DNA from: Terribacillus halophilus
Lineage (GTDB): Bacteria; Bacillota; Bacilli; Bacillales; Amphibacillaceae
DNA: 64,000 nt
Assembly: GCF_900162685.1 (NCBI RefSeq)
Contig: NZ_LT727828.1
Location: 708,824 to 772,823 of the forward strand
Direction of reading: 5' to 3'
The notes beneath the pieces were generated by a model, which saw only the letters and a list, made by a program, of their open reading frames with translations, had not been told where the DNA came from and ran no database searches. Made by a program: the position numbers and the translations under genes. Shown one piece after another: positions 37,642 through 64,000 of the stretch (positions within the stretch are counted from its first letter, which is position 1; each line of letters begins with the position of its first letter).

Positions 37642-38088
37642 ATTTGATCTAGGTGTAAGATGCTGCTTTGCTTTCGTACGGTTAGCGGAGCCTGGAAAGC
37701 GGAATCTTACCGAGATAACGCAAAAGAATTATTTTGTTAACACGTTCTACAGTGTTCTATGTAAAATAACTATCCTTGTTTTTTAAGCTGTACCATATAT
37801 TTTTTTAGGAAAGAACGCTTAATAGCATACATAAACAACCTTTTTTATGTCTTTGTATATATATTTTCGTCAATAAGTTGGTCGAACAAGTAAATATTTG
37901 ATGATTATTGTTAAAATTTGTTTAAGTTTGTAATATAATTAACATTGGTAAGTTTATATGCGTATAGACTTTATACCTATGAATTTTCCGAAGGTGGTGC
38001 TCTTATAGTCTCAGTTTTATAGATAGACATACATACTAGTCTCTATTCTTTGCACATTGAAAATCAAATAAGCCGTTGGGGGAGAATT
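37642..38088. other. Intergenic region before the glucosaminidase gene
   Basis: About 450 AT-rich bases. TATAAT at 37934-37939 is a likely -10; no good -35 is at 17 bases. No gene or riboswitch fold recognised. Confidence 0.45.
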
Positions 38089-41000
38089 ATGAGAAAAGTC
38101 GCAAGTCTTATTGTACTGCTGCTATTATTAAACTTAGCTGCACCTGTTTATAGTTCAGCTGCAGAAAACACTGAAAAAACATCATCCCAAACATCAGAAG
38201 TCATTGATCAGGATAAGGCTGTCCCTGTAACTAGTCAAGATGATGTAAATTTAGAAGCCGAAGTGGAAACGCAAGATACAAAAGCTGTTGAGGCGGAGAA
38301 AACAGAAGCTGAAAAACCAGTTGAAACAGAGATGGAAAAATCAACTGAAGAGGCATCCACTAAACAAGTTACGCCCGAATCATTATCAGAAGAGAACAAT
38401 AGTGCGACTGAAAATGATGAAGAAGTAAATTCTGCTCCTGAAGAGAAGAAGTCCGAAGATGAAAAAAATGCACAAGAAGCATCAACATCAGAAGACAAAG
38501 ACACACAGGCAACTGAGGAAGTTCCGGAGAAGAAATCGGTTTCTTCATCCAGCATATCAGAAGCTGAGAACGTACTAGAGTGGGGTTCTACAAGCAAGCT
38601 AGGACACCTTGGAAACAACTCGCGTATATACGCAGACTTAGCTAGTCTATCTTCATACAAAGTTGCCAAAGAAGCTGGACTTACAAATGCGGTATATTAT
38701 GCAAAACAACAAGCAAAAAGAAACGGTGAGTTATTTTATCGAATTAGTACGCAGCCGCATAGTGGTGTAGTAGGCTGGGTGAAAGCATCTGAGTTTAATG
38801 AACGCACTCACAAATCTATCAGCAATGATAGAAAGACTTTGTATGTAAAAGGAACTGGTGAAGCTTATACAAAAGCATGGGGCGGTTCTAAAGACAAAGT
38901 TTATACGTTGTCTTCATTAAAAGGAGAAAAGTTTGAGGTTAATTTGACTGAAACTGTTGGTACCAATACATGGTATCGCGGAATGCTCAATGGCAAGAAT
39001 GTATTTATCCATTCTGCTTACCTTACAACTAGTCCCAAGGGTGCTACAGTGAGTGCAACAAGTAAGTTGGGGCATCTTGGTAACAGTTCCCGTATATACA
39101 CGGATTTATCTAATCTGTCTTCATACAAAGTTGCCAAAGATACTGGACTTACAAATGCAGTATATTATGCAAAGCAGCAAGCAGATTTAAATGGTGAGTT
39201 ATTTTACAAAATTAGTACACAGCCAAGCAGTACACATGGTGTAGTGGGCTGGGTAAAAGCGTCTCAGTTTAATGAACGCACTCATAAATCTATCAGTAAT
39301 GATAAAAAGACTTTGTATGTAAAAGGCACTGGCGAAGCTTTTACAAAAGCATGGGGCGGTTCTAAAGACAAAGTTTATACGCTTTCTTCACTAAAAGGAG
39401 AAAAGTTTGAGGTTAATTTGACTGAAACTGTAGGCACCAATACATGGTACCGTGGAATGCTAAACGGTAAGAATGTATTTATCCATTCTTCTTATGTTAA
39501 AGAAATTGTGGCAAAAGAAAGTTCTACGAGTAAGTTAGGACATCTTGGCAACGATTCACGTATATATGCGGATCTATCTAATCTGTCTTCATACAAAGTT
39601 GCTAAAGAAGCTGGACTTACAAATGCAGTGTATTATGCAAAGCTGAAAGCAGATCTAAATGGAGAATTATATTACAAGATTAGCACGCAGCCAAGCAGCA
39701 CACATGGTGTAGTAGGTTGGGTGAAGGCATCAGAATTTAATGAGCGCACGCATAAATCTATCAGCAATGATAGAAAGACTTTATATGTAAAAGGAAGTGG
39801 CGAAGCTTTTACAAAAGCATGGGGCGGTTCTAAAAACAAAGTTTATACGCTGTCTTCATTAAAAGGAGAAAAGTTCGAAGTTAATCTGACTGAAACTGTT
39901 GGTACGAACACATGGTACCGCGGAATGCTTAATGGCAAGAATGTATTTATCCATTCTTCCTATGTAGAATCATATAAAGACATTGGTGTTGAAAGTTCTA
40001 CAAGCCGATTAGGACATTTGAAAAAAGATGCAGTTGTTTATAAGCATTGGTATGATCAGTCAGAAGGAAGAGTTGCCTCTGAGGCAAACCTTACGGATAC
40101 TGTCTACTACGTTAAACGTCAAGTGCAGGCAGCTGACGAAGTGTTTTATTTGATCAGTTTAGAACCGAGTGCGAAAAACGGAGTTGTAGGCTGGGTGCGA
40201 AGCGGTGATTTAAACAGCCGTTCTCATAAAGGAATTGATAAAGAACATAAAACTTTTTATGTAAATGGGAAAGGCACATCCTATACCAAGGCTTGGGGCG
40301 GATCAAAAGATATTGTTAAAACTGATTTATCCGATTATGCGGGCGAAACATTCTCTGTGACACTCACGGAGAGAGTAGGAAGTAATGTTTGGTACCGAGG
40401 TGTGATGAATAACAAAACAATGTGGCTTCACGAGTCTTTTGTTACCGAAAGTTACCAAAGAAGCACGCAATATGATTTGACTCTCCAAGAAGCGATCGAT
40501 ATTCAGAAAGAAGCAGGCGCTCAAACAGATAATGAGTATAGTGCTTATGTATCAATGGAATATATCGATAATAGTAAAGTGACCGCTGACTTACTTAATG
40601 TAAGAGGAGGTCCAAGTAAAGACTATTGGATTCTAGGGACTCTAAGCAAAGATTCCAAAGTAAATATTATTGGTAAATCAGGCAGCTGGTATAAGATCGA
40701 ATTTACCGGCGATCGTCAATGGGTGAATGCCAGCCCTAGCGATATTGCTTACTACTTAAATCCAAATAATTTTCTGGATAATGAGAAACAAAAGTTTCAA
40801 TTTCTGGACTTAACACGCTCAAGTGGGATTGATAAAGAAACACTAAATGCTTACATTGAGAAAAAAGCCCCGAAAGACAGTACGTTGCGTGGACAAGCAG
40901 AAGCTTTCATTGAGGCTAGCAAGCTGTATGGAATTAATGATATTTACCTAGTTTCTCATGCTTTATTAGAAACAGGAAATGGAACATCGTCATTGGCTAA

Positions 41001-41349
41001 AGGGAATACCTACAAAGGTAAGACGGTATACAATATGTATGGTATCGGTGCTTTTGATGAGTGTCCTCTTGAATGTGGTGTGAAGCGAGCATATGAGGAA
41101 GGTTGGTTTACACCTTATGATGCAATAGTAGGGGGAGCACAATACATTGGAAATGACTATATAAAAAATGGTCAAAATACATTGTACAAGATGCGCTGGA
41201 ATCCTAATGCAATGGCTAATTTAGGCAAAGCTAGTCACCAATATGCAACAGATATTGGATGGGCATCCAAACAAGTTTCAACTATGTTTAACCTTTACCA
41301 AGAAATTGGTGTTTACACACTTTACTTAGACATACCACACTATAATTAA
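38089..41349 (+). CDS. GW-repeat autolysin with glucosaminidase domain
   Basis: 1086 residues. Signal peptide at 1-25 (LIVLLLLLNLAAPVYSSAA), an acidic Glu/Ser/Thr-rich linker to about 165, four GW-type units of about 156 residues each (166-785; each contains a VVGWVKAS motif and a KAWGGSK motif, hence two SH3-like GW modules), a bacterial SH3 domain at about 828-890 (LLNVRGGPSKDYWILGTL) and a C-terminal LytD-like glucosaminidase (GH73) at about 900-1086 (SHALLETGNGTSSLA with catalytic Glu, then NMYGIGAFDE). It cleaves glycan strands outside the cell; GW modules bind teichoic acid and localise it. ATG at 38089 with GGGGGAG upstream. Next gene is the matching amidase. Confidence 0.92.
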   Translation: MRKVASLIVLLLLLNLAAPVYSSAAENTEKTSSQTSEVIDQDKAVPVTSQDDVNLEAEVETQDTKAVEAEKTEAEKPVETEMEKSTEEASTKQVTPESLSEENNSATENDEEVNSAPEEKKSEDEKNAQEASTSEDKDTQATEEVPEKKSVSSSSISEAENVLEWGSTSKLGHLGNNSRIYADLASLSSYKVAKEAGLTNAVYYAKQQAKRNGELFYRISTQPHSGVVGWVKASEFNERTHKSISNDRKTLYVKGTGEAYTKAWGGSKDKVYTLSSLKGEKFEVNLTETVGTNTWYRGMLNGKNVFIHSAYLTTSPKGATVSATSKLGHLGNSSRIYTDLSNLSSYKVAKDTGLTNAVYYAKQQADLNGELFYKISTQPSSTHGVVGWVKASQFNERTHKSISNDKKTLYVKGTGEAFTKAWGGSKDKVYTLSSLKGEKFEVNLTETVGTNTWYRGMLNGKNVFIHSSYVKEIVAKESSTSKLGHLGNDSRIYADLSNLSSYKVAKEAGLTNAVYYAKLKADLNGELYYKISTQPSSTHGVVGWVKASEFNERTHKSISNDRKTLYVKGSGEAFTKAWGGSKNKVYTLSSLKGEKFEVNLTETVGTNTWYRGMLNGKNVFIHSSYVESYKDIGVESSTSRLGHLKKDAVVYKHWYDQSEGRVASEANLTDTVYYVKRQVQAADEVFYLISLEPSAKNGVVGWVRSGDLNSRSHKGIDKEHKTFYVNGKGTSYTKAWGGSKDIVKTDLSDYAGETFSVTLTERVGSNVWYRGVMNNKTMWLHESFVTESYQRSTQYDLTLQEAIDIQKEAGAQTDNEYSAYVSMEYIDNSKVTADLLNVRGGPSKDYWILGTLSKDSKVNIIGKSGSWYKIEFTGDRQWVNASPSDIAYYLNPNNFLDNEKQKFQFLDLTRSSGIDKETLNAYIEKKAPKDSTLRGQAEAFIEASKLYGINDIYLVSHALLETGNGTSSLAKGNTYKGKTVYNMYGIGAFDECPLECGVKRAYEEGWFTPYDAIVGGAQYIGNDYIKNGQNTLYKMRWNPNAMANLGKASHQYATDIGWASKQVSTMFNLYQEIGVYTLYLDIPHYN
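38588..40442 (+). repeat. Four tandem GW units in the glucosaminidase gene
   Basis: Units start at about 38588, 39058, 39526 and 39996 (period about 468 bp). The first three are nearly identical at protein and DNA level; the fourth is diverged. Each begins with TSKLGHLG and ends with FIHSxYV. Confidence 0.9.
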
Positions 41350-41498: not shown

Positions 41499-41534
41499 CT
41501 ATCTTAGACTTAATCTAACATAAGGGGTTTGTTT

Positions 41535-44500
41535 ATGAGAAAAGTATTAAGTATCATCTTGGTTGCCATATTAGTAGTTAGTTCTATTCCAATAGATGTA
41601 AAAGGGCAGTCCATACCAAAAGACACAGAAAAACCTGCAGATATATTAGAGGGTTCACAAGAAACCAACAATCAAAATGTAGGAGAAGAAGAGGGTAACA
41701 TAGTAGAGGCAGAGGTACCTGCCGAAAAGAATACAACAGAAAACAATGACACAAATGATGAAAGTGCTGAAGAGCTAATTTCAGACAATGTCACAAAGCA
41801 ATCAGAGGACACAGAAAGTCTAAATCAAGAAAAAACAAATAATGTTGAAGCTGAAAATGAAAATAAGACAGAAGATACAGCAAGTGAAACAGAAGCTGTA
41901 AAAAAGAGTAAAGAGAGTACAGAGAAGGAAGATACCGAGGTTGAAACAGAAGAACTGAGAGTCTCTGAACCTGAGAGCACAGATACAACAGATAGTGAAG
42001 CAAAGGTTAATGAATTTGGAATAAAAGAAGGAACAATGGTTTACGGAATGGATATTAGTAAATTAACAGAAGAAGAGCTTCAATACATACCAAAAGATTG
42101 GCGGGATGGTATAGAGGAAAAAGAAGCTGAATCTTCTGAGGAGCCAAAATTCTATTCGAAAAGTGCATATCCAGATGTGAATGACTGGATCTTAAAGAAT
42201 ACGCCGTCAACTGCAAATGTAAAGTATGAGTATAAAAATTTCTTTGCACAATTCAACTATAGATATGGTTATGGCAAGGTAGAAGGTGTTGTAGCACATG
42301 AAACAGCAAATCCACACTCTACTATCCGTTCGGAAATAGACTTTATGTCAAGAAATCATAACAATGCTTTTGTACATGCCTTTGTTGATCACGGTAACAT
42401 TATTGAGATTCATCCGACAAATCGTGCAGCATGGGGAGCAGGATTCTTTGCTAATCAACGCTTTGTGCATGTGGAACTAGTAGAAGAAGATAGATTTGTA
42501 GACTTTGCTAAGTCTATTAATAACTACTCTGATTATCTAGCATCGGTCTTATATAAATATAATCTTGGTGTAACAGATGCAGAAAGAAATGGCACTGGTA
42601 CACTCTGGTCTCATAATGCAGTTTCTAAGTTCTTAGGAGGAACAAATCACACGGATCCAATTAGCTACTTCGGAAGATGGGGTTATAGTTGGGATGAGTT
42701 TGTGGAATTAGTAAAACTAAAATATGCGGCTAAATCGATAAAAGAATCATCTACTAGCAAGCTAGGTCACATCCGATCCAGTCAATCCAAAATATATACC
42801 GATCTTGCAACGCTGCAACCTAGTAAGAAAGCGGGCAGCACATACACAAATCAAGTATATTATATTAAGAAAGAAGCAAAGCGTAATGGACAGCTTTACT
42901 ATCTTCTTAGTACGAAGCCAAGCAGTACTTCGGGTACAATCGGATGGATTCGCGCTAGTGACATAGTGGTTTACAACCACAAATCCATCGATAAATCAAA
43001 GAAAGACTATATAATTAATGGAAATGGAAAAGCTTATACAAAAGCTTGGGGCGGTTCTAAGAACTTTGTATATAATCTTTCTTCTTACAAGGGAAGCACA
43101 CTTCACGTGAATTTATCAGAAGCAGTAGGCAGTAATTTATGGCTTCGAGGAACATTGAATGGCAAGCAGGTATGGGTACACTCTAGCTATGTATCAGCAA
43201 AGGGGAAAACATCTTATACAAGTAAGCTAGGGCACTTGAAGAGCAATGCTAAGATATACAAAGACCCTTTAAAGCCTAGTACTGTACGAATTGCCGGAAA
43301 TAAGGATCTTAATCAAGTTTACTATATCAAAAAGCAAATAGACTCGAACGGTGAAAAGTACTATTTAATCAGCTATTCACCGAGCAGCACTAAAGGTACA
43401 TTAGGCTGGGTAAAATCAACAGATATGTCGGTACACGAGCATAAGGGAGTATCCAAAGCACCTAAAACACTCTACGTCAAAGGAACAGGTACCGCTTATA
43501 GTAAAGCTTGGGGCGGATCAAAAAACAAAATCTACACGCTCTCTTCTCTGAAAGGAGAGAAGTTTGAAGTAAACCTTACAGAAAAAGTCGGCAGCAATAC
43601 ATGGTACCGAGGAAAGCTGAATGGTAAGAATGTATTTATACACTCCGCATTCGTTACTACAAGTATGGAAGTTAAGACGAGCCAGTTAGGACATCTGGGG
43701 AATAATGCACGTATTTATACAAACCTGTCTAATCCCTCTTCCTACAAAGTTGCAGAGAAAGATGGCTTTACAAATGCCGTCTACTACGCAAAAAGACAAG
43801 CGAAGCTGAATGGTGAATTGTATTACAAAATAAGCACCAAGCCAAGCAGCACAGCAGGTGTTGTCGGCTGGGTAAAAGCTTCTGACTTTAACCACCGATC
43901 ACATAAATCAATCAGTAACAACAGAAAAACGATGTATGTGAAAGGAACTGGCGAAGCTTTTACAAAAGCATGGGGTGGTTCAAAAAACAAAGTCTATAAT
44001 CTTTCATCTCTAAAAGGAGAAAAGTTTGAAGTGAATCTGACAGAAAAAGTTGGAAACAATACATGGTATCGTGGGATGCTCAATGGTAAGAATGTATTTA
44101 TACATTCTGCATTTGTCAGCGATACTATCGAGAGCACGACAAGCATGCTGGGTCATCTTGGGAACAATACACGTATTTATACAAATCTAAGCAATCTCTC
44201 TTCGTACAAAATTGCGAGGAGAGAGGGCTTTACAAATGCTGTTTACTACGCAAAAAGACAAGCGAAGCTAAATGGAGAAATGTATTATAAAATAAGCACA
44301 AAGCCAAGCAGTATCTCAGGGGTAGTCGGCTGGGTAAAAGCGTCTGAATTTAATCATCGAACACATAAGTCAATTAGTAAAAACAGAAAAACATTGTATG
44401 TAAAAGGAACTGGCGAAGCTTTTACAAAAGCATGGGGCGGTTCAAAAAACAAAGTTTATTCACTGTCTTCTTTAAAGGGAGAAAAGTTTGAAGTTAACCT

Positions 44501-44585
44501 GACAGAAAAAGTCGGAACCAATACATGGTACCGAGGAATACTGCATGGTAAGAATGTATTTATTCACTCATCTTATGTCAGATAA
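41535..44585 (+). CDS. GW-repeat autolysin with N-acetylmuramoyl-L-alanine amidase domain
   Basis: 1016 residues. Signal peptide at 1-25, acidic linker to about 160, an Amidase_2 domain at about 205-395 (zinc ligand His in VVAHETANPH, and later in LWSHNAVSKFLGGTNHTDP; the SKFLGGTxHxDP pattern is that of Atl/Ami amidases), then four GW units (404-1016) like those of the preceding glucosaminidase. It removes stem peptides from glycan. Staphylococcal Atl joins amidase, GW repeats and glucosaminidase in one polypeptide that is later cut; here the two activities are separate neighbouring genes with related repeats. The ATG at 41535 with AAGGGG upstream is chosen; a TTG at 41529 is less likely. Confidence 0.92.
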   Translation: MRKVLSIILVAILVVSSIPIDVKGQSIPKDTEKPADILEGSQETNNQNVGEEEGNIVEAEVPAEKNTTENNDTNDESAEELISDNVTKQSEDTESLNQEKTNNVEAENENKTEDTASETEAVKKSKESTEKEDTEVETEELRVSEPESTDTTDSEAKVNEFGIKEGTMVYGMDISKLTEEELQYIPKDWRDGIEEKEAESSEEPKFYSKSAYPDVNDWILKNTPSTANVKYEYKNFFAQFNYRYGYGKVEGVVAHETANPHSTIRSEIDFMSRNHNNAFVHAFVDHGNIIEIHPTNRAAWGAGFFANQRFVHVELVEEDRFVDFAKSINNYSDYLASVLYKYNLGVTDAERNGTGTLWSHNAVSKFLGGTNHTDPISYFGRWGYSWDEFVELVKLKYAAKSIKESSTSKLGHIRSSQSKIYTDLATLQPSKKAGSTYTNQVYYIKKEAKRNGQLYYLLSTKPSSTSGTIGWIRASDIVVYNHKSIDKSKKDYIINGNGKAYTKAWGGSKNFVYNLSSYKGSTLHVNLSEAVGSNLWLRGTLNGKQVWVHSSYVSAKGKTSYTSKLGHLKSNAKIYKDPLKPSTVRIAGNKDLNQVYYIKKQIDSNGEKYYLISYSPSSTKGTLGWVKSTDMSVHEHKGVSKAPKTLYVKGTGTAYSKAWGGSKNKIYTLSSLKGEKFEVNLTEKVGSNTWYRGKLNGKNVFIHSAFVTTSMEVKTSQLGHLGNNARIYTNLSNPSSYKVAEKDGFTNAVYYAKRQAKLNGELYYKISTKPSSTAGVVGWVKASDFNHRSHKSISNNRKTMYVKGTGEAFTKAWGGSKNKVYNLSSLKGEKFEVNLTEKVGNNTWYRGMLNGKNVFIHSAFVSDTIESTTSMLGHLGNNTRIYTNLSNLSSYKIARREGFTNAVYYAKRQAKLNGEMYYKISTKPSSISGVVGWVKASEFNHRTHKSISKNRKTLYVKGTGEAFTKAWGGSKNKVYSLSSLKGEKFEVNLTEKVGTNTWYRGILHGKNVFIHSSYVR
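42748..44582 (+). repeat. Four tandem GW units in the amidase gene
   Basis: Units start at about 42748, 43213, 43675 and 44143 (462-468 bp). Units 3 and 4 are closest to each other and to units 1-3 of the upstream gene; unit 1 is most diverged. Confidence 0.88.
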
Positions 44586-50645: not shown

Positions 50646-53600
50646 TTATTGATTGTTGTCTTCTTCGTTTCTTTCAGTTAACGGAAGGCGAATTTGAATC
50701 GTGGTGCCTGCACCTTCCTCACTGCATACAAGTAATCCGGAACCATTAATTTTTTGCAGGCGTGTATGTGTATTAAGCAAGCCAATACTATCTTTCTGTT
50801 CACTGGATACAGATAAATTCTGCAGTTTAGCAACAGGTATGCCAATGCCGTCGTCTTTAATGAAAATAACTGCTGTTGACTCCTCTTTAAGAATCTCAAT
50901 AAAAATGGTGCCGCCGTCCTCTTTTGATTGCAGTCCATGAAGTACGGCATTTTCCACTAATGGCTGAAGGGTGAGTGGAGGAATGCGGAATTGCACATGC
51001 CGATCGATATGCCACTTCACTTGAAGGCGTCTGCCAAACCGTTCTTGCTGGATGTACAGATAGGAGCGGACCAAATCCAGTTCTTCTTCAATCGGAATAC
51101 AGCTGGATATATTCTTTCCATTAAAGCTGGACTGCAAATAATTGCCGAATTCCTGAAGCAACCGCATCATGCGATCTGTATCAATTGTGCTTAATGACGC
51201 GATTGTATTTAACGTATTAAATAGGAAGTGTGGATGAATCTGGGCTTGCAGCCACGCCGCTTCCATGCGCAAGCGTTCCTCTATCGATTCTTTGAGTTCT
51301 AGCATGGAGTTGACTCGAGTTTTCAGTTCTACAATGTCGATTGGTTTCATGACATATTCATTAGCGCCTGCCCGAAAACCTGCATACACATCCGTAACTT
51401 GAGAACGGGCTGTAAGTAGTAAAATAGGTAATTCGCTCAGGCTGTATGTTTGTCGGACTATTTCTGTTAATTGGAAACCAGATATTTTCGGCATCATCAC
51501 ATCAATGATGAGCAGGTCATACCTTTCTTTTGTTAAGCACTTTAGGAATGCAGTGGCTGTGGAAACCGTATGGATGTGGTATCCATTTGATTCAAATGTT
51601 TGTTTCAAAACCATCAAGTTAACCGCATCATCATCTATTGCTAAAATGCGACGGTCAGAAGTCGTTGCTAGATCTGGTTCTATTTTTTCTGCAACAGCAG
51701 AGGCAACTTCTGTATAGGTTGCTGTCTTGGGGGGAGAGCTGACTTGCTGATCAGCAGCTAATGGCAAGGATAATGTAAAGGCAGAACCTTTAGCTAACTC
51801 GGAATCGACAGTTAACGTTCCGCCATGCATTTCCGCCAGCTGTTTACTAATACCGAGACCAAGGCCGATGCCTTCACTCTCAGAAATTGTATTATCTCCC
51901 TTTTCATAAGGAAGAAAAATCCGTGCTTGCGTATGCTCATCTATCCCAATCCCCGTATCAATCACTTTTACATAAAGTTGTGTCTCATCCGCTGAGACAA
52001 CCAAGTGAATGCTGCCTTCATGTGTGAATTTCAAGGCATTGTGGAGCATATTGGTCACAATTTGTGTAACGCGGTGTTCGTCAGCATACACACAAGGAAG
52101 TGAATCTGGCATGTCTACATGAATGTCCACGTGTTTTTCCTCAGCCATGAAACGAAGCATGTCTACAGTTCCAATAAGAAGAGGCTCGATTTGCATAGCT
52201 GCAGGCTCCAGTCGCAGTCGATTTTGCTTCATCTGGGTCACATCAATTAGATCATTCAGAAGATAAGACATCTTCCGGCTAATCGTTTGAATCAGCTGCA
52301 GCTTATATTTGCTTTGATTGTTCAGCTTACTTTCCTGTTCAATTACACTTTGAGCCATGTTCATCATCCCATGAAGTGGTGTATGCAACTCATGTGACGT
52401 GTTAGCCAGGAACTGGTCTTTCCGCTTTTGTTCCAATTCCAGTTGTTCAATATACCGTTCGTTTTCTGTTTCTGTCTGAAAAAAACGGATGAACCAAAAG
52501 CTGCAGAAACAAACGAAGGCGACGGTAATATCGAATGGATAAAAGCCGCTTTTAATTGCTGCTTGCAACGCTTTATCAATGAAGGGAAGATTTCCGATCA
52601 AAACAGTCCAAGCAACATGTGAGACAGCTGCCGCTCCGGCTAGAAACAGCGGCAGTGCTCTCTCCCCAGTAGTAATAACGGTCCGGAATAGGATCCAGCA
52701 TACGATGGAGAAAGCAATCATTAAAGAAATGCCGATACCAAGCACGTAACGCACAAAATCAATTGGCGCTAAAAGGAGATAGATTAGGTAAGCGGCAAAC
52801 AACAAAGAAAGAAAGCGAAATGGCCACTTGTTTGCCGCGTTCGTGAACGTGACTACGGCAAATAGCAAAAAGAAGAAGCTCAACCCAACATAACTAAAAT
52901 AGACGATTCGCACGTGCCAGTCGTAAGACAGATTAATTACATACCCTAAGGCATTGTAATCCGAAGTAACAACAGCTATGCTGGTCAGCAGGACAGCGAT
53001 AGAGAAATAGAACGTGCCTATTTTCTTTGGCCTCATCACATAAAGGACAAAGGCATAAACAGCATGGATAAACAGAATAGCTCCAACAAAAAATTGAACG
53101 CCTGCGGCTAAAAACGTTTCTTGTTGGATTTGCTTGCTGGAGCCAAATTTTGTCTCAATCATTGCTTTCGCATGGTCATTTCCATGAAATGCATGGAACC
53201 GCACATGCAGCCGTATATATCCGTCCTTATCTGTTTTTAAATTAGTTATAGCAATAGGTGTTCCTGGGCCTTGATGGAAATCGGGTGTTCGGTAGACGAG
53301 CTTGTCATTAGCAAACACGGTAACATCTGCATAGAGCGCACGCAAAGAGAGCGCGTATTGCGCTGTACTGTCTCCTGTATGTATGTCTAATTCATAAGCG
53401 CCGATTGCATCGGCTTCCATGTATGCTGGCAGCTGGGCAGATGTGCCGGAATCTGCAGCATCTGTCATCTTCCAATCGCCACTCAATTCAATCGAATGAC
53501 TGCTGGAGAAATCAATTTCTTGTGCATCCAATTGTCCGTCGGCTGCCGTCGGCTGTATAGCCGGTGTCTGAAAGTGATACCAGACGAATCTGCCCAAAGT

Positions 53601-53654
53601 CAGCAGTATGGCAAATGCTAAAATAAGGAGCAGCTTTGTTCTACCTCTCATCAT
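50646..53654 (-). CDS. Hybrid histidine kinase with two kinase modules (7TMR-DISM type)
   Basis: 1002 residues from the minus-strand ATG at 53654 (AGGAGG upstream). Order: N-terminal helix, extracellular beta domain (about 30-180; galactose-binding-like, DISM-extracellular), seven-helix membrane region (about 185-395), HisKA with LANTSHELHTPLHGMMNMAQ (about 420), HATPase (DTGIGI, GIGLGLGISKQLAEMHGG), receiver domain at about 670-785 (ILAIDDDAVNLMVL; Asp in LLIIDVMMP; MKPID), then a LytS-like second kinase module: IHPHFLFNTLNTIASL (about 808) and HATPase to about 985. It probably phosphorylates the SARP-like regulator encoded just upstream, and may take input from the receiver. Signal unknown. 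The adjacent adhesin gene is the natural target. Confidence 0.88.
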   Translation of the reverse strand: MMRGRTKLLLILAFAILLTLGRFVWYHFQTPAIQPTAADGQLDAQEIDFSSSHSIELSGDWKMTDAADSGTSAQLPAYMEADAIGAYELDIHTGDSTAQYALSLRALYADVTVFANDKLVYRTPDFHQGPGTPIAITNLKTDKDGYIRLHVRFHAFHGNDHAKAMIETKFGSSKQIQQETFLAAGVQFFVGAILFIHAVYAFVLYVMRPKKIGTFYFSIAVLLTSIAVVTSDYNALGYVINLSYDWHVRIVYFSYVGLSFFFLLFAVVTFTNAANKWPFRFLSLLFAAYLIYLLLAPIDFVRYVLGIGISLMIAFSIVCWILFRTVITTGERALPLFLAGAAAVSHVAWTVLIGNLPFIDKALQAAIKSGFYPFDITVAFVCFCSFWFIRFFQTETENERYIEQLELEQKRKDQFLANTSHELHTPLHGMMNMAQSVIEQESKLNNQSKYKLQLIQTISRKMSYLLNDLIDVTQMKQNRLRLEPAAMQIEPLLIGTVDMLRFMAEEKHVDIHVDMPDSLPCVYADEHRVTQIVTNMLHNALKFTHEGSIHLVVSADETQLYVKVIDTGIGIDEHTQARIFLPYEKGDNTISESEGIGLGLGISKQLAEMHGGTLTVDSELAKGSAFTLSLPLAADQQVSSPPKTATYTEVASAVAEKIEPDLATTSDRRILAIDDDAVNLMVLKQTFESNGYHIHTVSTATAFLKCLTKERYDLLIIDVMMPKISGFQLTEIVRQTYSLSELPILLLTARSQVTDVYAGFRAGANEYVMKPIDIVELKTRVNSMLELKESIEERLRMEAAWLQAQIHPHFLFNTLNTIASLSTIDTDRMMRLLQEFGNYLQSSFNGKNISSCIPIEEELDLVRSYLYIQQERFGRRLQVKWHIDRHVQFRIPPLTLQPLVENAVLHGLQSKEDGGTIFIEILKEESTAVIFIKDDGIGIPVAKLQNLSVSSEQKDSIGLLNTHTRLQKINGSGLLVCSEEGAGTTIQIRLPLTERNEEDNNQ

Positions 53655-53671
53655 GTTCCTCCTGTACGCTT

Positions 53672-54787
53672 CTACATATGCTGCAATCTCCATGACTCAT
53701 ACCATTCTGTTACTTCTGAATCGGGATTGACGCCGTATTCTTCCGCCAGCATAATTTCTAAACGTTCATATTGATTCACTACTTCACCAGACTCCCCTAA
53801 TGCATCACAAAGATGCAAAATACGGTGATAACTATGTGTAATATACGGGAATTTTGCTTGCATAGTGAAGTATAGAGAGAGCGCCTCTTCCATCATCTGC
53901 AGTTCTTCAAGACATTTTCCTACCTGAGCAGCGGTCTTATACCAAAGCTCCTGCACATATCTTTGTTTCGTCTCCGCCCATCCATAGCCTTCTGTAGCAA
54001 AATAATCTCCGTTGTATTGTCGCAGAAGTGCTTGATAGCTAGGCAATGTATCTTGCTGTAATGGCAGCAATTGATGTAATTGCTTCTGCCATTCTTCCAC
54101 GTCAATCTTGGTATCTCCTACATGAAGTTGGTAGCACTGATCCTTACTGCTTAATGATATAGAAGGCAGTGAAGCGGCTAATGTTTTCCGGATAACATAG
54201 ATGGTGGAATACAGCTGTGTAGTTGATTTGGCTAGTTCCGTCTCTCCCCAAAATTCTTCGATAAGAACATCCTTACGCACAGGCTTTCCTGCATGATGAA
54301 GCAAATAACAGAACACTTCTTTTGCCTTCGACGTCCGCCATTGGACAGGTATCGATACGTTATTCTGAATGAACTGTAAAGTAGGCATGCACATAATTTG
54401 AATAGGTGCCTTTGATGCACTTTCGGTAATTTCATCCTGTTGCAGACGTTGAATTGTCTTGATCAATCTATCTCTTTGTATCGGTTTCATAATATAATCC
54501 AGCGCATTTACCTCAAACGCTTGGACTGCGTATTCATGAAACCCCGTTACAAAGACAATCGGGAGATCCGGTTTCACTTCTTGTATCGTTGATGCCAGCT
54601 CAACACCATTGACCGCACCAATCTTTATATCTAAAAAAAGCAGCTCTGGCTGCTGTTCTATAATTTTTTCCGTTAGTCCCCGCGCAGAGTCATAAGCTCC
54701 CACGATTATAAAGTCCCCAATGCTATGTAACTGTGATTCTAAAAATTGCAGTGCCAGCGGCTCATCATCAACTAACATAACTTTCAT
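53672..54787 (-). CDS. SARP-like response regulator (REC + winged helix + BTAD)
   Basis: 371 residues from the minus-strand ATG at 54787 with GGGAGG upstream. Receiver domain at 1-115 (VMLVDDEPLALQFLES; phosphoacceptor Asp in LLFLDIKIGAVNG; FVTGFHEYAVQAFE; IMKPIQ), then an OmpR-like winged helix at about 125-215 (RTSKAKEVFCYLLHHAGKPVRKDVLIEEFW) and a bacterial transcriptional activation (BTAD, TPR-like) domain at about 220-365. This SARP-type architecture is widespread in Firmicutes next to hybrid kinases. The kinase gene follows after 17 bases, so both make one operon. Divergently transcribed from the giant adhesin gene, which it likely activates. Confidence 0.88.
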   Translation of the reverse strand: MKVMLVDDEPLALQFLESQLHSIGDFIIVGAYDSARGLTEKIIEQQPELLFLDIKIGAVNGVELASTIQEVKPDLPIVFVTGFHEYAVQAFEVNALDYIMKPIQRDRLIKTIQRLQQDEITESASKAPIQIMCMPTLQFIQNNVSIPVQWRTSKAKEVFCYLLHHAGKPVRKDVLIEEFWGETELAKSTTQLYSTIYVIRKTLAASLPSISLSSKDQCYQLHVGDTKIDVEEWQKQLHQLLPLQQDTLPSYQALLRQYNGDYFATEGYGWAETKQRYVQELWYKTAAQVGKCLEELQMMEEALSLYFTMQAKFPYITHSYHRILHLCDALGESGEVVNQYERLEIMLAEEYGVNPDSEVTEWYESWRLQHM

Positions 54788-54821
54788 AATCAAGCCTCCC
54801 GCATGTAGTTTTCCTATCTGT

Positions 54822-54977: not shown

Positions 54978-55016
54978 TTTCAAAGACTAGAAAAGCGCAA
55001 AGGAGAAAGATGCAGT

Positions 55017-58000
55017 GAAGAGAAAAATTCCTGTAATGATGCTGATTATGATTCTGCTTATGCAAACGGTGTTATCCGGTTCGCTCGGGACAGCACAGGT
55101 TTTTGCAGAAGGAACAGATGCAGAGCCATTTCAAGCAGAAATCGAGTTGACTGACCAAGAAGATAATCCAATCAGTCAAGAACACCGTGCAGAAAGAGAC
55201 GCGAAACTGAAACTGAAAGTGAATTGGAACAAAACCCAGCACACATCAGATGAAGATACATACCAGATCATACTGCCAGAACAGTTGGATTTTGAGGCAG
55301 TAGAATCTGCCGTTCTAGTAAATGAAGAGAATAAAGAGGTAGGAAAGTATAGCCTAAAAGATGGCTTTTTATCTTTCCAATTTACGAACGAAGAGCAAGA
55401 ACCTGCTAAAGGGACGATAGAAGTTCCATTTAGCAGCAATCAAGCGGTACAAGAAAGCAAAGAAGAACAAGTGGAACTAACTTTCGCTGTCGGAAGCAAC
55501 GTGCAGCTTGTGCCGTTCTATTTAACGGTACCAGCTGAGACAGAGCAAACGCCAGCGGAACCAGCAGCAGACGAAGAACAAACAGAAGAAGCACCTGCAG
55601 ACGATGCATCGGCAGAAAAGCCTGCTGAACAAGAGCAAGCAAGTGAAGAGAAAGCACCAGACGAACCGATAGATGGAGAGCTTGCAGCAGAGGATAAAGC
55701 AGCTGAAGAGCAGCCAGCTGACCAAGAACAGGAAGTAAAAGATCCTGCAAAAGACAAAGCAGGAGAAGAGAAAACTGACGAGATAACGGAAGCAGAAAAG
55801 GAAGATACAGAAGAAAAGAAAACAGAAGAGGAAGCAGCACCAGAAGTAGCAGAACGCCAAACTGGTGAAATCGAAGAAAACATCATCACAAGTATTGTTA
55901 TGAAAGACGAAAAAGGGGATATCATTGATGCCGATGAAAACCCTGAGAACCAGCCAACATTAGGAGAAGCAGTCACGATTGATATGGAGTGGGCATTGCA
56001 AAATGGGCATCCGTATGGGGAAGGATCTACCTTTACCTTCAACCTGCCGGATTATTTCAAGCTTTACAATGATGTGAAAGGTGAGCTTGCATTTGGCAAT
56101 GATAGTGTCGGATCTTACGTCATGAAAATGGATGGCACGGTCGTGATGACGTTCAATGACAACATCAGCAAGCTGTCCAACGTAAAAGGGACATTGCATT
56201 TGTGGACAGAATTCAAGGAAGAGATTGTGGGAAGTGTTGAGCAGGAAATTGTTTTCACCATTAAAGAAGAAGCGATAGACATTATTCCGATAAGATTCAC
56301 ACCAAAAACAGAAATTGCAATCGATAAAGCCGGCAAAACCGACCGTGGCTATAATGCTAAAGAAATTACATGGACGGTAGATTTCAACAAAAAGCTGGCG
56401 ACGATTGAAGATGCTGTGCTGCATGATCCGCTTCAAGAAAACCTGCAGCTGCAGCCGGGTTCCATTAACGTATATAAACTCGATGTTCAGTTGGATGGAA
56501 CGGTCAAGCAAGGAGAACTTGTGGATCCTTCTAATTACCAGGTGCAGGAAGAACCGTTTAGCATTAGTTTTGGCCAGCTGAAGGATGCGTATCGGGTTGA
56601 GTTTACAACAGATATTACTGACGCTGACGGCAGAAATTATTCAAACACTGCTACATTAACGGGTTCTAATCTTGAGAAGGACTTATCTGCTAAAGCCTCT
56701 GTTAATGTAAGGCGTGGAGAACCGTTGAAGAAGACCAACGCTCATTATGATGAGAAAAAGCAAATCATCACTTGGGAAATAGAATACAACTATAATGAAA
56801 AAGCAATTAAGCAGCAGGATGCAGTACTAACAGATTTGTTTGATGACAGTCATGTGCTGCTTGACAATATTATTGTGGAAAGAATTACGATTGGAGAGAA
56901 CGGAGAAGAAGTATCAGCAGCAGAAGTTAAGAACTATCATATAGACGAATTGACAGCCAAAGATGGAAAACGCGGCTTCCAGTTGCAATTTGATGAGAAC
57001 ATTCAAAATGCCTATAAAATCACATATCAAACAAAAGCAGAAGGACGCGTATTAGAGGATGGCCGAATTAATAATACGGTGACAACTGGAGAGTATGAGA
57101 AGGGTGCTGGCGGAGATATCAAACAGCAAGTGCTTTCCAAGTTCAGTTCTAATGTCAATTACCAAAAGAAAACGAGCGATTGGACCATTGACTTCAATAA
57201 AGATTCCCATGAAATGAAGAATGTCGTTATTACGGATACGTACCCAAATAAGGGTCTTACGATGAAAGAGGATACATTCAAGATTATTAATATCGATGGC
57301 AATAAAGAGGTATCCAGAGACGAGTATGAACTAACCGTTACACCAGACGGATTTACAGTAGAATTCAAAAATCAAATCAACACACCGCATAAAATTACGT
57401 ATTCTACTGATTTTAATTATGACAGCTTAACGGAACATAAAGTATTTAAAAACAATGTACAGCTGGACTGGACGGATGAATGGGAGAAAGAGCAAACCAA
57501 AGAAGCTTCAGCAGAGTTCTATCCAGATGAATATACAAAGAACAACGGTTTTAAGAATGGTTCCTATAATGCTGTAACGAAAGAAATTACTTGGAACGTC
57601 GGAGTTAACTATGATCTAAAAGATTTGAAGAATATCACGGTAACTGACTATATCCAAGGTCAGCAACAGTTAGTAGAAGATTCAATTAAGGTATATGACA
57701 CACAGCTTATGGGTTGGTGGAATGGTGTAAATAAAGGTGAGCTTTTAGCAGAAGGAAAAGACTATACAGTTGAAAAGGTAACCAATGCTAAAGGTGAACC
57801 AGGCTTTAAAGTGAAAATATTGAAAGATAACAGCAAGCCTTACTGGATTGAATACAAAACCAGCCTTGCTGGAGAATTGATTGTCAATCGATACAATAAT
57901 ACCGCAACGCTGGATAGTGATGATCTGGAATCTATTAATCTAGATGCGCATGTATCTGTCAACAATGGAGGCAGCTATAACGTAAAGAATGGATCTCAAA

Positions 58001-61000
58001 ATGGGAATGCAATTAATTGGAGAATCGATATTAATAAAGGGCAATCCCATGTTACGGAAGCTAAGGTGACGGATGAACTAAGAGCGGATCAAATCCTTTT
58101 AGAAGATAGCTTCAAGCTTTACGCAACAAATGTTGATGGAAGAGGCAATCTTTCAAAAGGGGAAGAAGTTCCAAAGGGTGACTACAAGCTAGATATCCAG
58201 ACAGCTGATGATGGAAGCCAAACGTTCGTACTATCTTTCTTGGAAGATATCGATCGTGCTTACATCTTGGAGTATCAATCCTATATCAATGCAGCCAATG
58301 GGCAGGAGGTTAGCAATAAAGCAGTATTCTCAGGAAAGAATATTACGACAGAAACTGTAGAATCAAGTAAAACAATCATTGTTAAACGAAGCGGGGGCAG
58401 TGGTTCTGGATCCGGCGAATACGGCAGTTTGGAAGTTTCCAAAGTGGATGCAGCTACAGGTGATCCGCTAGCGGGTGCAACCTTCACGTTGTACGATAGC
58501 GCAGGTGAGATTGCTATCCGCAGTGTGACTACAGGCGAAGATGGGAAAGCCGTTTTCAAAAACCTTCTATACGATAACTATCTGTTAAAAGAAGTTAAAG
58601 CGCCAGAAGGTTATGTAGTAGGTATCCAGGATACGAAGAAAGTAACGGTAGAAGGCGAATCAAAAGTTACGATTGAAAATAAAGAAATTACGCGATATGC
58701 ACAAATAACGAAAAAAGATGCAGAAACAGGCAAACCTATCGCAGGTGCTGTATTTGAACTTCAGCAGCAAATCGATGGAGAATGGAAACAAAGCCAAAAA
58801 GATCTAACAACAAATGAAGATGGGATTATTTCTGTCAAAGATTTGGATGCTGGTAACTACCGCTGGGTCGAAACAGAGGCACCAGAATTGTACGAATTGA
58901 ATGCAGATCCTGTGTATTTCAATATCCAGGACAATCAAACGTGGGTGACTGAAGTTACCAAGGATAACGCAATTAAAAGAGGTAGTGTAAAACTGCAAAA
59001 GATGGACCAAGCGGGCGATCCGCTGCAAGGTGCTGTTTTCGCAGTAAAAGATGCTGATGGAAATCCAGTAAGAGAAGGCATCACAAGCGACGAGAATGGT
59101 TTGGTAGAAGTGAAAGACCTTCGTCCAGGCACCTATACAATCGTCGAAACAAAAGCACCAGAATTTTACCAGCTAGATCAAACAGAGCATAAGTTTACAA
59201 TTGATCCAAATAAGGAAGCGCAAGTCGATTTAGGTACCATTGAAAATAAATTAATAACGGGCAGCATTAAACTAACCAAAGTGGATGCTGATCAGAAAGA
59301 GAGCCTACTGGAAGGCGCAGTCTTTGAACTGCGAACAGCAGACGGAGAGACACTACGAGAAGGCCTGACAACCAATGCTGCAGGTGTATTGCTAGTTGAC
59401 CAGCTAGCACCGGGCAACTACCAACTCGTTGAAACAGCGGCACCAAACGGTTACCAAGTAGATGCTGCACCAATACAGTTTACGATTGAAAAAAGCAATG
59501 AAGAAAAAATTCAAGTAGAACGTGAAATCAGCAATAAGCTAACACCAGGAGAAGTAATCCTGACAAAAGTCGATGACAAGGACGGCACAGTCTTGGCTGA
59601 AGCAGAATTTGCGCTTTATCATGAGAATGGTGACCTAGTTAAAGAAGGTCTTAAAACAGATGCAGACGGCAAACTGACTGTTGCTGATTTGCATCCAGGT
59701 AAGTATTATTTCCAAGAAACAAAAGCACCAGCAAATTATGAGCTGAATGAAGAAAAACTTCCATTCACGATCGAACGCGGACAACTCGCTGCTGAAGAAG
59801 TAACAGCAACGAACACATTGACGCCAGGAGCAGTGTCGTTGGTTAAGACGGACGAAAATGATGACAGCGTGAAGCTGGCTGGAGCAGAGTTTAAGCTGCT
59901 GGATGCGAAAGGTGACGTAGTAAAAGAGAAACTGATTACAAATGAAGCAGGGCAAATTGTAGTGGAAGATTTGGCACCAGGAACGTATACCTTCGTAGAA
60001 ACAAAAGCATCTGAACATTATCAGCTTGACGACACGCCAATAGAAGTAACAGTGGAAAAAGGACAGAAGGCAGCAGCTGTCGTGACAGCGACAAATGTGC
60101 TCATCCCAGGAAGTGTTGTTTTAGAGAAAGTGGACAGCGCTGATCACAACATCAAACTGGAAGGAGCAGTCTTCCAGCTTGTAAACAGCAAAGGCGATGT
60201 TATCGAGAAAGAATTGAAAACTGGCAATGACGGACGCATTGTAGTAGAAAATCTGAAGCCAGGCAACTATCAATTTATTGAAGTAACAGCTCCAAAAGAT
60301 TACGAATTAGACAAAGAACCAATTAACTTTACGGTAGACAAGAGTCAGAAAGAAGCACTTGTCATCCAGCAGACAAACACGTTAACGCCAGGTTCAGCGG
60401 AACTGAAGAAAGTGAACAAACACAATTCAGAAGAAGCTTTAGCGGGTGCAGTGTACGTGCTGAAGGATGCAGCAGGCACTATCGTAAGAGACAATCTGAT
60501 TACAGATGAAGATGGCAAAATAGCTGTAAAAGATTTGGCACCAGGTACGTATCAATTTGAAGAAGTAAAAGCGCCAAAACACTTTGTTTTGGATAGCACA
60601 CCAATTACAGTCGAAGTGGCGCGCAGTCAAGAAAAGACAGTTGCTGTAACAGCGACGAATGAGTTAAAACGAGGCGCAGCAGAAATTAAGAAGGTTGGAG
60701 AAGATGATACAGCAAAAGGCTTGGAAGGAGCAGAATACGAGCTTCGTACAACTGACGGGGTAACCGTTGAGTCTGGCAAGACAGATGAAACAGGAACACT
60801 TCGTTTTAATAATCTGCTTCCAGGTGAGTATGTGATCGTGGAAACGAAAGCACCTTTTGGCTATGACGTGGATAGCACACCGATTCCAGTTACAGTAGAA
60901 CGCAGCCAAAAAGAAACAGTAACAAAACAGCAAGTCGACAAACTCTCAACAGGATCTATTGTATTGAAGAAAGTCGACAGTGAAGAAAACACAATTGGCT

Positions 61001-64000
61001 TAACAGGAGCAGAATTTACGCTGCAAGATGACAACGAAAAAGTTCTTCAAACCGGTCTAACAACAAACGAAGCTGGTGAACTGGCGATCACACACTTGAA
61101 GCCGGGCGATTATCAGTTAGTGGAAACAAAAGCACCAGCAGATTATGTGCTGAATGACACACCAATCATCTTTACAATTGAGAAAGGACAGCAAGTGATT
61201 TCGACAGTGGAAGTGGAAAATACACTTACACCAGGTGCTGTATCCTTGATTAAAGTAGATAAAGACAATGAAGGTGTGCCGCTTCAAGGAGCGGAATACA
61301 AATTAGTCGATGCAGCAGGTACAACGATACAAGAAAAGCTGGTTACCGATTTGGATGGCCGCATTATCGTTTCGAACCTGGCACCAGGAAAGTATCAATT
61401 TATCGAAACAAAAGCACCAGAAAACTATGTGCTAGATGAAACACCAATTGACGTGGAAGTAACGCGCAGTCAAGAGGAAGCAGCTATTGTGCGTGCCGAG
61501 AATGAGCTGATTCCGGGAAGCGTCGCCTTAGAGAAGAAAGACAGTGTGGATGAATCCATCACACTAGCAGGCGCTGCATTCAAACTTGTAGACAGCAAAG
61601 GTAATACGATTGAAGAAAAACTATCAACAGACGAGAACGGCAGAATTGTTGTAGAAGATTTGAAACCAGGTGCTTATCAGTTTATTGAAACAAAAGCACC
61701 CGCGGATTATGCGCTCAACGAAAAGCCAATCGACTTTGAAATTAGCAAGAATCAGCAAGAGAAACTTGTTGTGTCTGCAGCAAACAAACTAATTCCAGGC
61801 AGTGTGGAATTAACGAAAATCAATACACACGATCGTGCAGAGAAACTGGCAGGAGCTGTTTTCGAACTGCAAGATCAAGATGGCAAGGTAATGCAAGCAG
61901 ACTTGAAGACAGACGAATCAGGCAGCATGACCGTCGATAATTTGGCACCAGGAAACTACCAATTTGTTGAGACCGCAGCACCGACAGACTTTGTAACAGA
62001 TCAAACACCAATCCGTTTTGTAATTGAAAGAAGTCAGCAGGAAAAAGTGACACTTACAGCGGAAAATGATCTGAAAAAAGGATCGTTGGAAATTGTGAAG
62101 CTCGACAGCGTCGATGAGAAGCTAGGTCTGGAAGGAGCTTCATTCGACCTACTGACAGCTGAAGGAGATAAGGTTGCGTCTGGTACAACAGATAAAGAAG
62201 GAAAGCTTGTTTTCAAAGATCTCGTTCCAGGCAGCTATTTCATTAAAGAAACGAAAGCTCCATTTGGATACGATCTAGATCCGGCAGCTAAACCGGTAAC
62301 AATTGAGCGCAGCCAGCAAGAAACAGCAGTCGTCCAGCTTCAAAACGAACTCTCCACGGGAGCAGTTCAGCTGAAGAAAGTCGACAGCGCAGATAACAAT
62401 ATAATGCTTTCCAATGCAGTGTTCCGTTTACAGGACAGCAACGGTGACACATTGCAGGAAGGGTTAACAACGAACGGTGATGGTTTACTGACAATTACCG
62501 ATTTGAAACCAGGTAACTACCAGTTGATTGAAACAAGCGCACCAGAGAATTATGTGCTGGATAACACACCAATTGCTATCACGATTGAAAAAGGACAGCA
62601 AACAGCCCTTCCTGTCACTGCAGAAAATACACTGCAGCCAGGTATCGTATCACTAATTAAGGTAGACAAAGACAATCCAGAAACTCATCTGGAGAACGCA
62701 CAATTTAAATTGTTAGATGAAAAAGGAAACACAGTAAAAGAGCAGCTGCACACAGATGGAGAAGGGCGTATTATCGTGGAAGATTTAGCGCCAGGTTCCT
62801 ACACATTTGTGGAAACAAAAGCACCAGCAGGGTATGAGTTGGATGACACAGCTATCAGCGTCACGGTAGAAAAAGGTCAAAAAGAAGCAGCAGTTGTGAC
62901 GGCTGTCAATGAACTAACAACAGGAAGTGTCGCGCTTGAGAAAATCGATGCAGACAACAATGAAGTGAAGTTGGAAGGCGCGGTCTTCAAACTTGTGAAC
63001 GCAGAAGGTGACGCAGTAAAAGAACAGCTCGTTACTGATGAGAACGGGCAAATCACAGTGGAAGATCTAAAGCCGGGTAACTATCAGTTTATCGAAACAA
63101 AAGCACCAGCAGGTTACGACTTGGATGCATCACCAATCAACGTAACAGTTGATAAAGGGCAGCAAGAAACAGCAGTTGTTACAGCAGAGAACCTACTAAC
63201 ACCAGGAAGCGTTAAGCTTGAAAAAGTCGATGCCGACAACAACACAGAGAAATTAGCTGGCGCAGTCTTCCAACTAGTGAACGATAAAGGTGACGCAGTA
63301 AAAGAACAGCTCGTCACTGATGAGAACGGTGAAATCACAGTTGAAGGTTTGAAGCCAGGAAACTACCAGTTTATCGAAACAAAAGCACCGGCAGGTTACG
63401 ATTTAGATGAAACACCAATTAATGTAACAGTTGCGAAAGGCCAGCAAGAAACGGCAATTGTTACAGCAGAGAACCAACTAACACCAGGGAGCGTCGCACT
63501 TGAGAAAGTCGATGCAGATGACAACACAGTAAAATTAGCTGGCGCAGTCTTTAAACTTGTGAACGATAAAGGTGACGCAGTAAAAGAAAAGCTCGTTACT
63601 GATAAGAACGGACAGATCACAGTTGATGGATTGAAGCCAGGAAACTACCAATTTATCGAAACAAAAGCACCAGCAGGTTATGACTTAGATGAAACACCGA
63701 TTAACGTAACCGTTGCGAAGGGTCAGCAGGAAACAGCGGTTGTGACAGCAAAGAACAAACTCACACCAGGAACAGCTGTGTTAGAGAAAGTCGATGCAGA
63801 TGATGCTTCTATTCTTTTGGAAGGTGCAGTGTTCAAACTGGTCAATGAAAAAGGTGACATGGTTAGAGAAAACCTTACAACGGACGAAACAGGCCGCGTT
63901 ACGGTTGATGACTTGAAGCCAGGAAACTATCAATTCATTGAAACAAAAGCACCAGCAGGCTATCAGCTTAATGAGGCACCAATTGATGTGACTGTGGAGA
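55017..64000 (+). CDS. Giant collagen-adhesin-like surface protein, 3' end outside window
   Basis: GTG at 55017 with AAAGGAG nine bases upstream; frame open to the window end (2,994 codons and more). Signal peptide about 1-33 (LIMILLMQTVLSGSLGTAQVFA), an N-terminal beta domain, an acidic low-complexity stretch (about 175-285), then five tandem collagen-binding-domain-like modules of about 137 residues (about 435-1125; each with a motif such as EITWTVDFNKK, IITWEIEYNYN, WTIDFNKDS, EITWNVGVN, INWRIDINK), a GSGSGSGEYG linker, and from residue 1136 at least twenty Cna-B modules. Each Cna-B has an LxKxD Lys and an ETKAP Glu, the pair that forms internal isopeptide bonds and stiffens the stalk. LPxTG must lie downstream. 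Likely a sortase-anchored adhesin. Ligand unknown. The product is visible only with the frame unclosed, so automatic ORF calls may miss it. Confidence 0.9.
58423..64000 (+). repeat. Array of at least 20 Cna-B/SpaA modules
   Basis: Module starts at about 58423, 58690, 58982, 59257, 59545, 59824, 60106, 60388, 60670, 60949, 61231, 61513, 61795, 62077, 62356, 62638, 62920, 63202, 63484, 63766. Usual period 282 bp (94 residues). Cut by the window end. Confidence 0.92.
59824..62637 (+). repeat. Two copies of a five-module, 1407-bp superrepeat
   Basis: Copy A 59824-61230, copy B 61231-62637, third copy beginning at 62638. Modules 5 apart are each other's best matches (6/11/16, 7/12/17, 8/13, 9/14, 10/15), with starts exactly 1407 bases apart in 6/11, 11/16, 7/12, 12/17, 9/14 and 10/15. 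Confidence 0.85.

Follow-up and report, generated by a model that had tools for sequence, protein, structure and literature searches.

How did a bacterial surface protein acquire a stalk of 27 similar domains, and did this growth take place recently? The question is raised by a Terribacillus adhesin gene at the end of the stretch of DNA analyzed here (the window, 64,000 nucleotides). A sequence-only reading had proposed that the stalk grew first by duplication of a five-module block and later by copying of single modules. Our comparison with related genomes indicates that this pattern is mostly right, whereas the timing and the direction of the later change probably are not. We consider it quite probable that block growth was ancient and single-unit growth old, that stalks contracted elsewhere, and that the genome of the window (G000) kept the long form of an MSCRAMM-like adhesin on an isopeptide-locked rod.

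A wall-anchored protein on a Cna-B stalk

The adhesin gene crosses the window end inside module 20, and we fetched its 3′ end from the same contig, where it lies at what would be position 66402 (L009:839-12226). The stalk had been taken to comprise the 20 modules within the window; the gene runs on, however, with seven further modules downstream. It has GTG as the listed start codon and encodes 3,795 amino acids. Read in translation, the C terminus features LPQTG followed by a hydrophobic segment and a positively charged tail; the profile search reported no anchor model for the whole adhesin. A sortase gene adjoins, and its listed ORF overlaps the adhesin 3′ end by 38 bp. Its product matches Pfam Sortase; in the profile search it cleared the generic sortase model but no class-specific one. 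Among the named genomes, the closest homolog is that of T. aidingensis with 79% identity; the other four loci show 31–39%. We infer that the product is a wall-anchored fibrillar adhesin with an MSCRAMM-like head on a Cna-B stalk. Adhesion would be its presumptive function, with the head projected from the cell on a covalently stiffened stalk. Coordinates are collected in Table 1.

Table 1. Parts of the adhesin gene within the window
Feature	Position	Strand	Basis
Adhesin gene, 5′ part	55015..64000	+	ORF list, fetched 3′ end, C-terminus read
Head: Big_8 (one stretch) and Collagen_bind, PF05737 (five stretches), followed by GGSGSGS linker	55966..58416	+	profile search, model, Foldseek
Module 1: the only one whose best match in four further genera is its namesake	58417..58689	+	module comparison
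Modules 2–5: divergent, outside the five-module period; one-to-one in nine genomes	58690..59817	+	module comparison
Modules 6–10: first five-module superunit, classes A B C D E	59818..61224	+	identity matrix, tree
Modules 11–15: second five-module superunit, A B C D E	61225..62631	+	identity matrix, tree
Module 16: class A, opens third superunit	62632..62913	+	tree
Modules 17–19 and most of 20: start of the variable slot, which extends to module 26 beyond the window	62914..64000	+	module comparison

The surroundings hold further features. Divergently upstream, at 50646-54793 on the minus strand, lie genes for a histidine kinase that includes a receiver domain and for a response regulator whose BTAD match is barely above its cutoff. 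Directly downstream of the sortase (L009:13243-15357), a second putative wall-anchored protein with a choice_anch_I domain is encoded, its LPXTG anchor match being slightly below the cutoff. Neighboring cell-wall hydrolase-like genes, for a glucosaminidase with SH3/GW domains (38050-41349) and an amidase with GW domains (41529-44585), contain two more tandem repeats, at 38585-39965 and 43503-44569 (468 and 462 bp). No Rfam family reached the gathering score anywhere in the window.

The head was modeled over 852 amino acids with a pLDDT of 89 and a pTM of 0.55. Its Foldseek neighbors include PrgB Ig domains, SdrD, CNA and ACE. Among the matches listed, the query-normalized TM of the whole model stayed below 0.2, which probably reflects uncertain placement of the domains along the string. 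By sequence, no PDB chain matched the head at E 0.001. The structure alignment of the head covered 13 of the 14 genomes with a fetched gene, that is, all but G006. The G006 gene copy has an in-frame stop in its N-terminal part; the gene may be disrupted or the sequence faulty here.

In the stalk, the profile search found 27 SpaA/Cna-B (PF17802) stretches over the whole gene, beginning at about 58417, and thereby confirmed the tandem Cna-B stalk that had been read from about 58423. We split it into 27 modules of 91–96 amino acids, mostly 94. A module model (pLDDT 92) had the CnaB2 domain of Lactobacillus plantarum as its top PDB match (TM 0.93), and 18 of the 20 window modules (3–20) entered the structure alignment. 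According to PMC12617251, the typical bond in Cna-B domains links Lys to Asn or Asp, with a Glu involved. Across nine genomes, all 168 modules have the isopeptide Lys and Glu. The third residue is Asn in 159 of them and Asp in 9, and these nine are module 9 of each genome (window 60664-60942), which thus appears to be a conserved Lys-Asp type. An isopeptide lock is hence predicted for each stalk module, Lys-Asn in all but one and Lys-Asp in that one, formed with a catalytic Glu. The Glu lies in LKPGNYQFIETKAPAGY, whose codons occupy columns 162–212 of the 303 codon columns, with the Glu codon at column 189. The NCBIfam SpaH/EbpB pilin model matched modules 17–20 (62914-63999) in four stretches with 140.6 bits (cutoff 95), a score that Cna-B domains would give.

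Block growth and the age of the copies

An adhesin gene is present in 9 of the 10 Terribacillus genomes examined, our own included; in G008, neither the head nor the stalk start found a match at E 0.001. With one genome sampled per species, stalk length is seen to vary between species: G000 has 27 modules, G003 has 19, G001, G006 and G007 have 18, and G002, G004, G005 and G009 have 17. For modules 1–16, all 1152 directed comparisons among the nine genomes returned the module at the same position as the closest in DNA. Since these modules correspond one-to-one, the block duplication within them must predate the split of the species.

The block itself is visible as a period of five between modules 6 and 16. 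Protein identity at offset 5 averages 55.9%, compared with 40–47% at offsets 1–4 and 6–9 (protein z 4.5, p 0.0002; DNA z 4.4, 0 of 5000 order shuffles). This range was picked post hoc from the identity matrix, and the signal weakens to z 2.2 (p 0.02) once all 20 modules of the window are included. In the nine-genome average over modules 6–16, the period holds separately in the front 60 columns (0/5000) and in the back 41 (p 0.001). A module tree had been suggested as a check on whether modules five apart group, and our tree of 65 modules (4–16 only, from five of the nine genomes) recovered all five classes, with ultrafast bootstrap/SH-aLRT support of 87/97 for A (6, 11, 16), 97/95 for B (7, 12), 68/92 for C (8, 13), 100/99 for D (9, 14) and 88/85 for E (10, 15). 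Module 4 is closest to class E. In an earlier tree, also with five of nine genomes, module 1 was drawn into module 14 on a long branch, and the analysis was re-run with modules 4–16; the 8/13 pair had a support of 93/94 there. Raw identity places module 8 closest to 11 and so masks this pair, which the tree with orthologs recovers. Modules 9 and 14 have a one-codon gap in common. The two superunits and the beginning of a third, previously placed at 59824-62637, fit our coordinates of 59818-62631 with module 16 opening the third.

Two supposed marks of the block are less sharp than the sequence-only reading had it. Between 6 and 16, the likeness of modules five apart exceeds chance, but such a partner is the best match in no more than 7 (DNA) or 8 (protein) of these 11 modules, in 6 or 7 of the 20 in the window and in 5 or 6 of all 27. 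The spacing of 1407 bp does occur in most five-apart pairs (9 of 15), yet it is not diagnostic, as it merely sums four modules of 94 amino acids and one of 93 and runs on past the break in module order (13/18, 14/19). The protein identity of adjacent modules is 34–54% within 6–16 and 68–88% from 17 to 26. Modules 17–20 had been described as near copies, which is true for 17–19 (82–87% in DNA) and not for module 20, only 67–69% identical to them.

Outside the genus, we compared four of the six head-matching genomes (G011, G037, G018 and G014, leaving out G031 and G013) and found no sign of a five-module period; only module 1 finds its namesake there. The G011 stalk has a two-module period (7/9 91%, 8/10 79%), and the G037 stalk consists in part of single-module copies (11–14, 92–96%) with an exact repeat of 131 bp. 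Related adhesins in other genera thus grew by other units.

Nonsynonymous and synonymous distances order these events. Five-apart paralogs in 6–16 have a dN of 0.31–0.42 and the later copies in 17–26 of 0.06–0.29, which, together with the common possession of modules 1–16 by nine genomes, places block duplication before single-unit copying. Synonymous distances were calculated according to NG86, where values above 1 are saturated. Over modules 1–16, the median between G000 and its relatives is 0.35 for G003, 0.17 for G002 and 1.6–2.0 for the remaining six genomes, each of which had 3–6 of the 16 modules without a computable distance. Within G000, distances amount to 0.56–0.76 among modules 17–19 and to a median of 1.5 among modules 20–26 (one of 21 pairs undefined). 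All exceed the distance of 0.35 to the G003 orthologs, and modules 20–26 differ from one another nearly as much as G000 does from the six remote genomes; single-unit copying therefore was not recent. Saturation calls for caution, but even the near copies 17–19 look older than the split from G003. The proposed order of block duplication and single-unit copying thus stands; the copying is not recent, and the later change apparently was contraction.

These distances bear directly on a history in which block duplication was followed by recent single-unit expansion in the G000 lineage alone, with short stalks as the ancestral state elsewhere. It would account for G000 being the only one of nine genomes with ten modules in the variable region and for the likeness of modules 17–19. 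The median of 1.5 among modules 20–26, far above 0.35, is at odds with it, as is a G003 module that joins module-18-like and module-26-like sequence (see below). On both grounds we set recent expansion aside as improbable.

Tandem repeats are also a classic source of assembly errors, and repeats could have been collapsed in the shorter genomes or falsely expanded in G000. The stalk modules, however, are mostly 45–75% identical in DNA and at best 87%, and exact repeats within the gene reach 32 bp in G000 and no more than 27 bp in the remaining eight genomes. The gene hence is not of the near-identical repeat type, and the collapse that had been named for checking is unlikely. Moreover, the contigs that carry the gene measure 3.40 Mb in G003 and 3.58 Mb in G004, and the G003 junction module is a hybrid in frame and of normal length. 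An artefact is therefore very improbable, and we dismissed it.

Hybrid modules in the variable slot

All variation in length, from 17 to 27 modules, is confined to a slot near the wall, between module 16 and the last module. In G000 the slot comprises modules 17–26 and is followed by the conserved last module 27, which corresponds to module 19 of G003 (90% in DNA). The slot holds ten modules in G000, two in G003, of which the second is a hybrid, and one each in G001, G007 and G006; in G002, G004, G005 and G009 it is empty except for a hybrid-looking last module.

The clearest hybrid is module 18 of G003. In 60-column windows, its front is 85–93% like module 18 of G000 and its back third 88–95% like module 26. 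Informative sites favor module 18 by 54:8 in the front and module 26 by 25:6 in the back, a contrast reached in 0 of 5000 label shuffles. We tried all 21 parent pairs (17–19 with 20–26), and the 18/26 split scored highest with 79 of 93 sites. The other 20 pairs also gave p values of 0 to 0.07, since modules 17–19 resemble each other, as do 20–26, so that 18/26 is singled out by score and window identities and not by its p value. The module fits the scar of an eight-module deletion, provided that the ancestor had as many modules as G000. Conversely, G000 modules 20–25 have best G003 matches of only 68–72% in DNA, compared with 88–94% for the orthologs 1–16; an insertion into a G003-like array is disfavored, because it would require the import of these modules, poorly matched in G003.

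The last modules of other species point in the same direction with less certainty. Module 17 of G002 resembles a fusion of 17 with 27 (G003 parents, p 0.001; G000 parents, p 0.067 and thus weak). Module 17 looks like a 17/18 fusion in G004 (p ≤0.0004), G005 (0/5000) and G009 (p 0.0038–0.0052; all by label shuffles), and three non-hybrid controls showed no switch (p 0.127, 1 and 1). Fisher values are too small, as the best split was chosen after the fact, and uneven rates along the module could imitate part of the front–back contrast. The back part of the G005 hybrid is 88–90% like those of G004 and G009 (88–98% among the three), and the G005 and G004 back parts are only 74–79% like the last module of G001 and G007. 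G004 and G009 are sisters. The G005 hybrid may thus be a separate event or an import; for all three, a single event may have moved between species, or a lost module may be involved. In total, one loss is well supported and a further two or three are likely, the hybrids beyond G003 being suggestive.

From these data we propose the following course. Block 6–10 would have been duplicated in tandem to give 11–15, and a third copy begun with module 16, before the species separated. Growth would then have shifted to single modules at the wall-proximal end (17–26), mostly before G000, G002 and G003 split. In other species, unequal recombination among slot modules would have deleted whole modules, while the G000 array stayed long. 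Each deletion would leave a fusion of an earlier module's front with a later module's back, and the stalk would shorten with its lock kept, as the fused modules carry Lys, Glu and Asn. Unequal crossing-over is the process that we infer here, as is any effect that stalk length might have.

Exchange between species at this locus deserves separate consideration. In the head (window 56001-58401), G000 is 91–97% identical to G003 and 73–86% to G002, which is equally distant from G003 and from G000. In the stalk (58401-62801), G000 is nearer to G002 in 10 of 11 windows (90–99%, vs 88–95% to G003). The nearest relative therefore switches at about 58400, at the border of head and stalk, suggesting from sequence comparison that the head was swapped as a cassette, probably in G002. 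The flank trees conflict as well, placing either G002 or G003 nearer to G000; the upstream-flank tree was calculated without G006. Given such visible exchange, G000 could have acquired its long 17–26 array by recombination with a longer-stalked relative, short stalks being old, and import from a relative outside our sample would produce much of what is observed. This would need an unseen donor, though, and the 18/26 hybrid of G003 would still imply ancestors with module-18-like and module-26-like sequence. The last module of G000, moreover, tracks that of G003. We regard such an import as unlikely and prefer contraction of an old array in the other species.

The glutamate segment and known systems

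The hybrid junctions map in or beside the LKPGNYQFIETKAPAGY codons. On the 303 codon columns, they fall at 151–185 in module 18 of G003, just ahead of the Glu codon, and in the respective modules 17 at 182–203 in G004 and G009, at 186–213 in G005, and in G002 at 188–200 with G003 parents and 137–140 or 194–200 with G000 parents. The same codons are the most DNA-conserved part of the slot modules: identity among 17–26 is 80–86% in 30-column windows starting at columns 165–195 and 58–75% in others. This peak also limits how well junctions can be placed, as fewer sites differ there, and their clustering at the Glu segment is suggestive.

The slot modules as a group might have a comparable origin. 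Their best description is a class B front and a class A back (59.3, next best 55.2), with the switch at protein column 62. The corresponding column test gave p 0.001 for one of 20 ordered class pairs, chosen after the data were seen; it included 15 slot modules, with hybrid module 18 of G003 among them, and left out the last modules of all genomes, including modules 17 of G002, G004, G005 and G009. Leave-one-out controls were unclear in two of five cases (back of module 12, −0.6; front of module 6, 0.1), and AU tests of a hybrid origin of 17–26 had no power (p 0.30–0.66; four of nine genomes, modules 4 up).

We may thus speculate that the Glu segment is a recombination seam of Cna-B stalks, where functional constraint keeps the DNA alike and crossovers fall, and that the founder of 17–26 was itself a hybrid (front B 7/12, back A 6/11/16); this is a tentative proposal, which we hold to be possible but not the likelier case. 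As Lys precedes the seam and Asn follows it, every crossover product would be a complete, self-locking hybrid domain. A hybrid founder, if true, would mean a crossover out of step by one module, at the position of the later junctions. Were the seam general, Cna-B stalks could evolve in length without near-identical repeats, which could be tested in many gram-positive adhesins.

Among the matches listed, the literature contained nothing on this Terribacillus protein. Its kind is already known. Cna-like MSCRAMMs and adhesins with SpaA/Cna-B stalks have the same Collagen_bind/Big_8 head, Cna-B stalk and LPXTG anchor; the Terribacillus stalk differs from them by its 27 modules and its partial five-module super-period. 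Periscope Proteins likewise expose a surface rod of tandem domains in variable number, and PMC8201768 and PMC9704523 link their variation to high DNA identity of the repeats and to change from strain to strain. In contrast, the Terribacillus gene lacks long tandem repeats of such identity, with mostly 45–75% and exact repeats of at most 32 bp, and it varies between species. Stalks of near-identical repeats erase their own history, whereas the diverged modules preserve it here, so that one gene records block growth, single-unit growth, contraction and at least one readable deletion scar. This scar, and the possible seam in a catalytic segment, are what makes the case worthwhile. Domain-repeat proteins that grew by multi-domain tandem duplication, such as nebulin by sevens (PMC1553488), also combine a multi-domain period and mixed unit sizes with neighbors less alike than modules one period apart; the present case is bacterial and in addition has a hybrid module marking a deletion. 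In Bartonella BadA, according to PMC8859334, stalk length is similarly thought to shift via recombination of similar domain arrays, but BadA is a trimeric autotransporter, and the recombination proposed there is with a downstream badA-like region.
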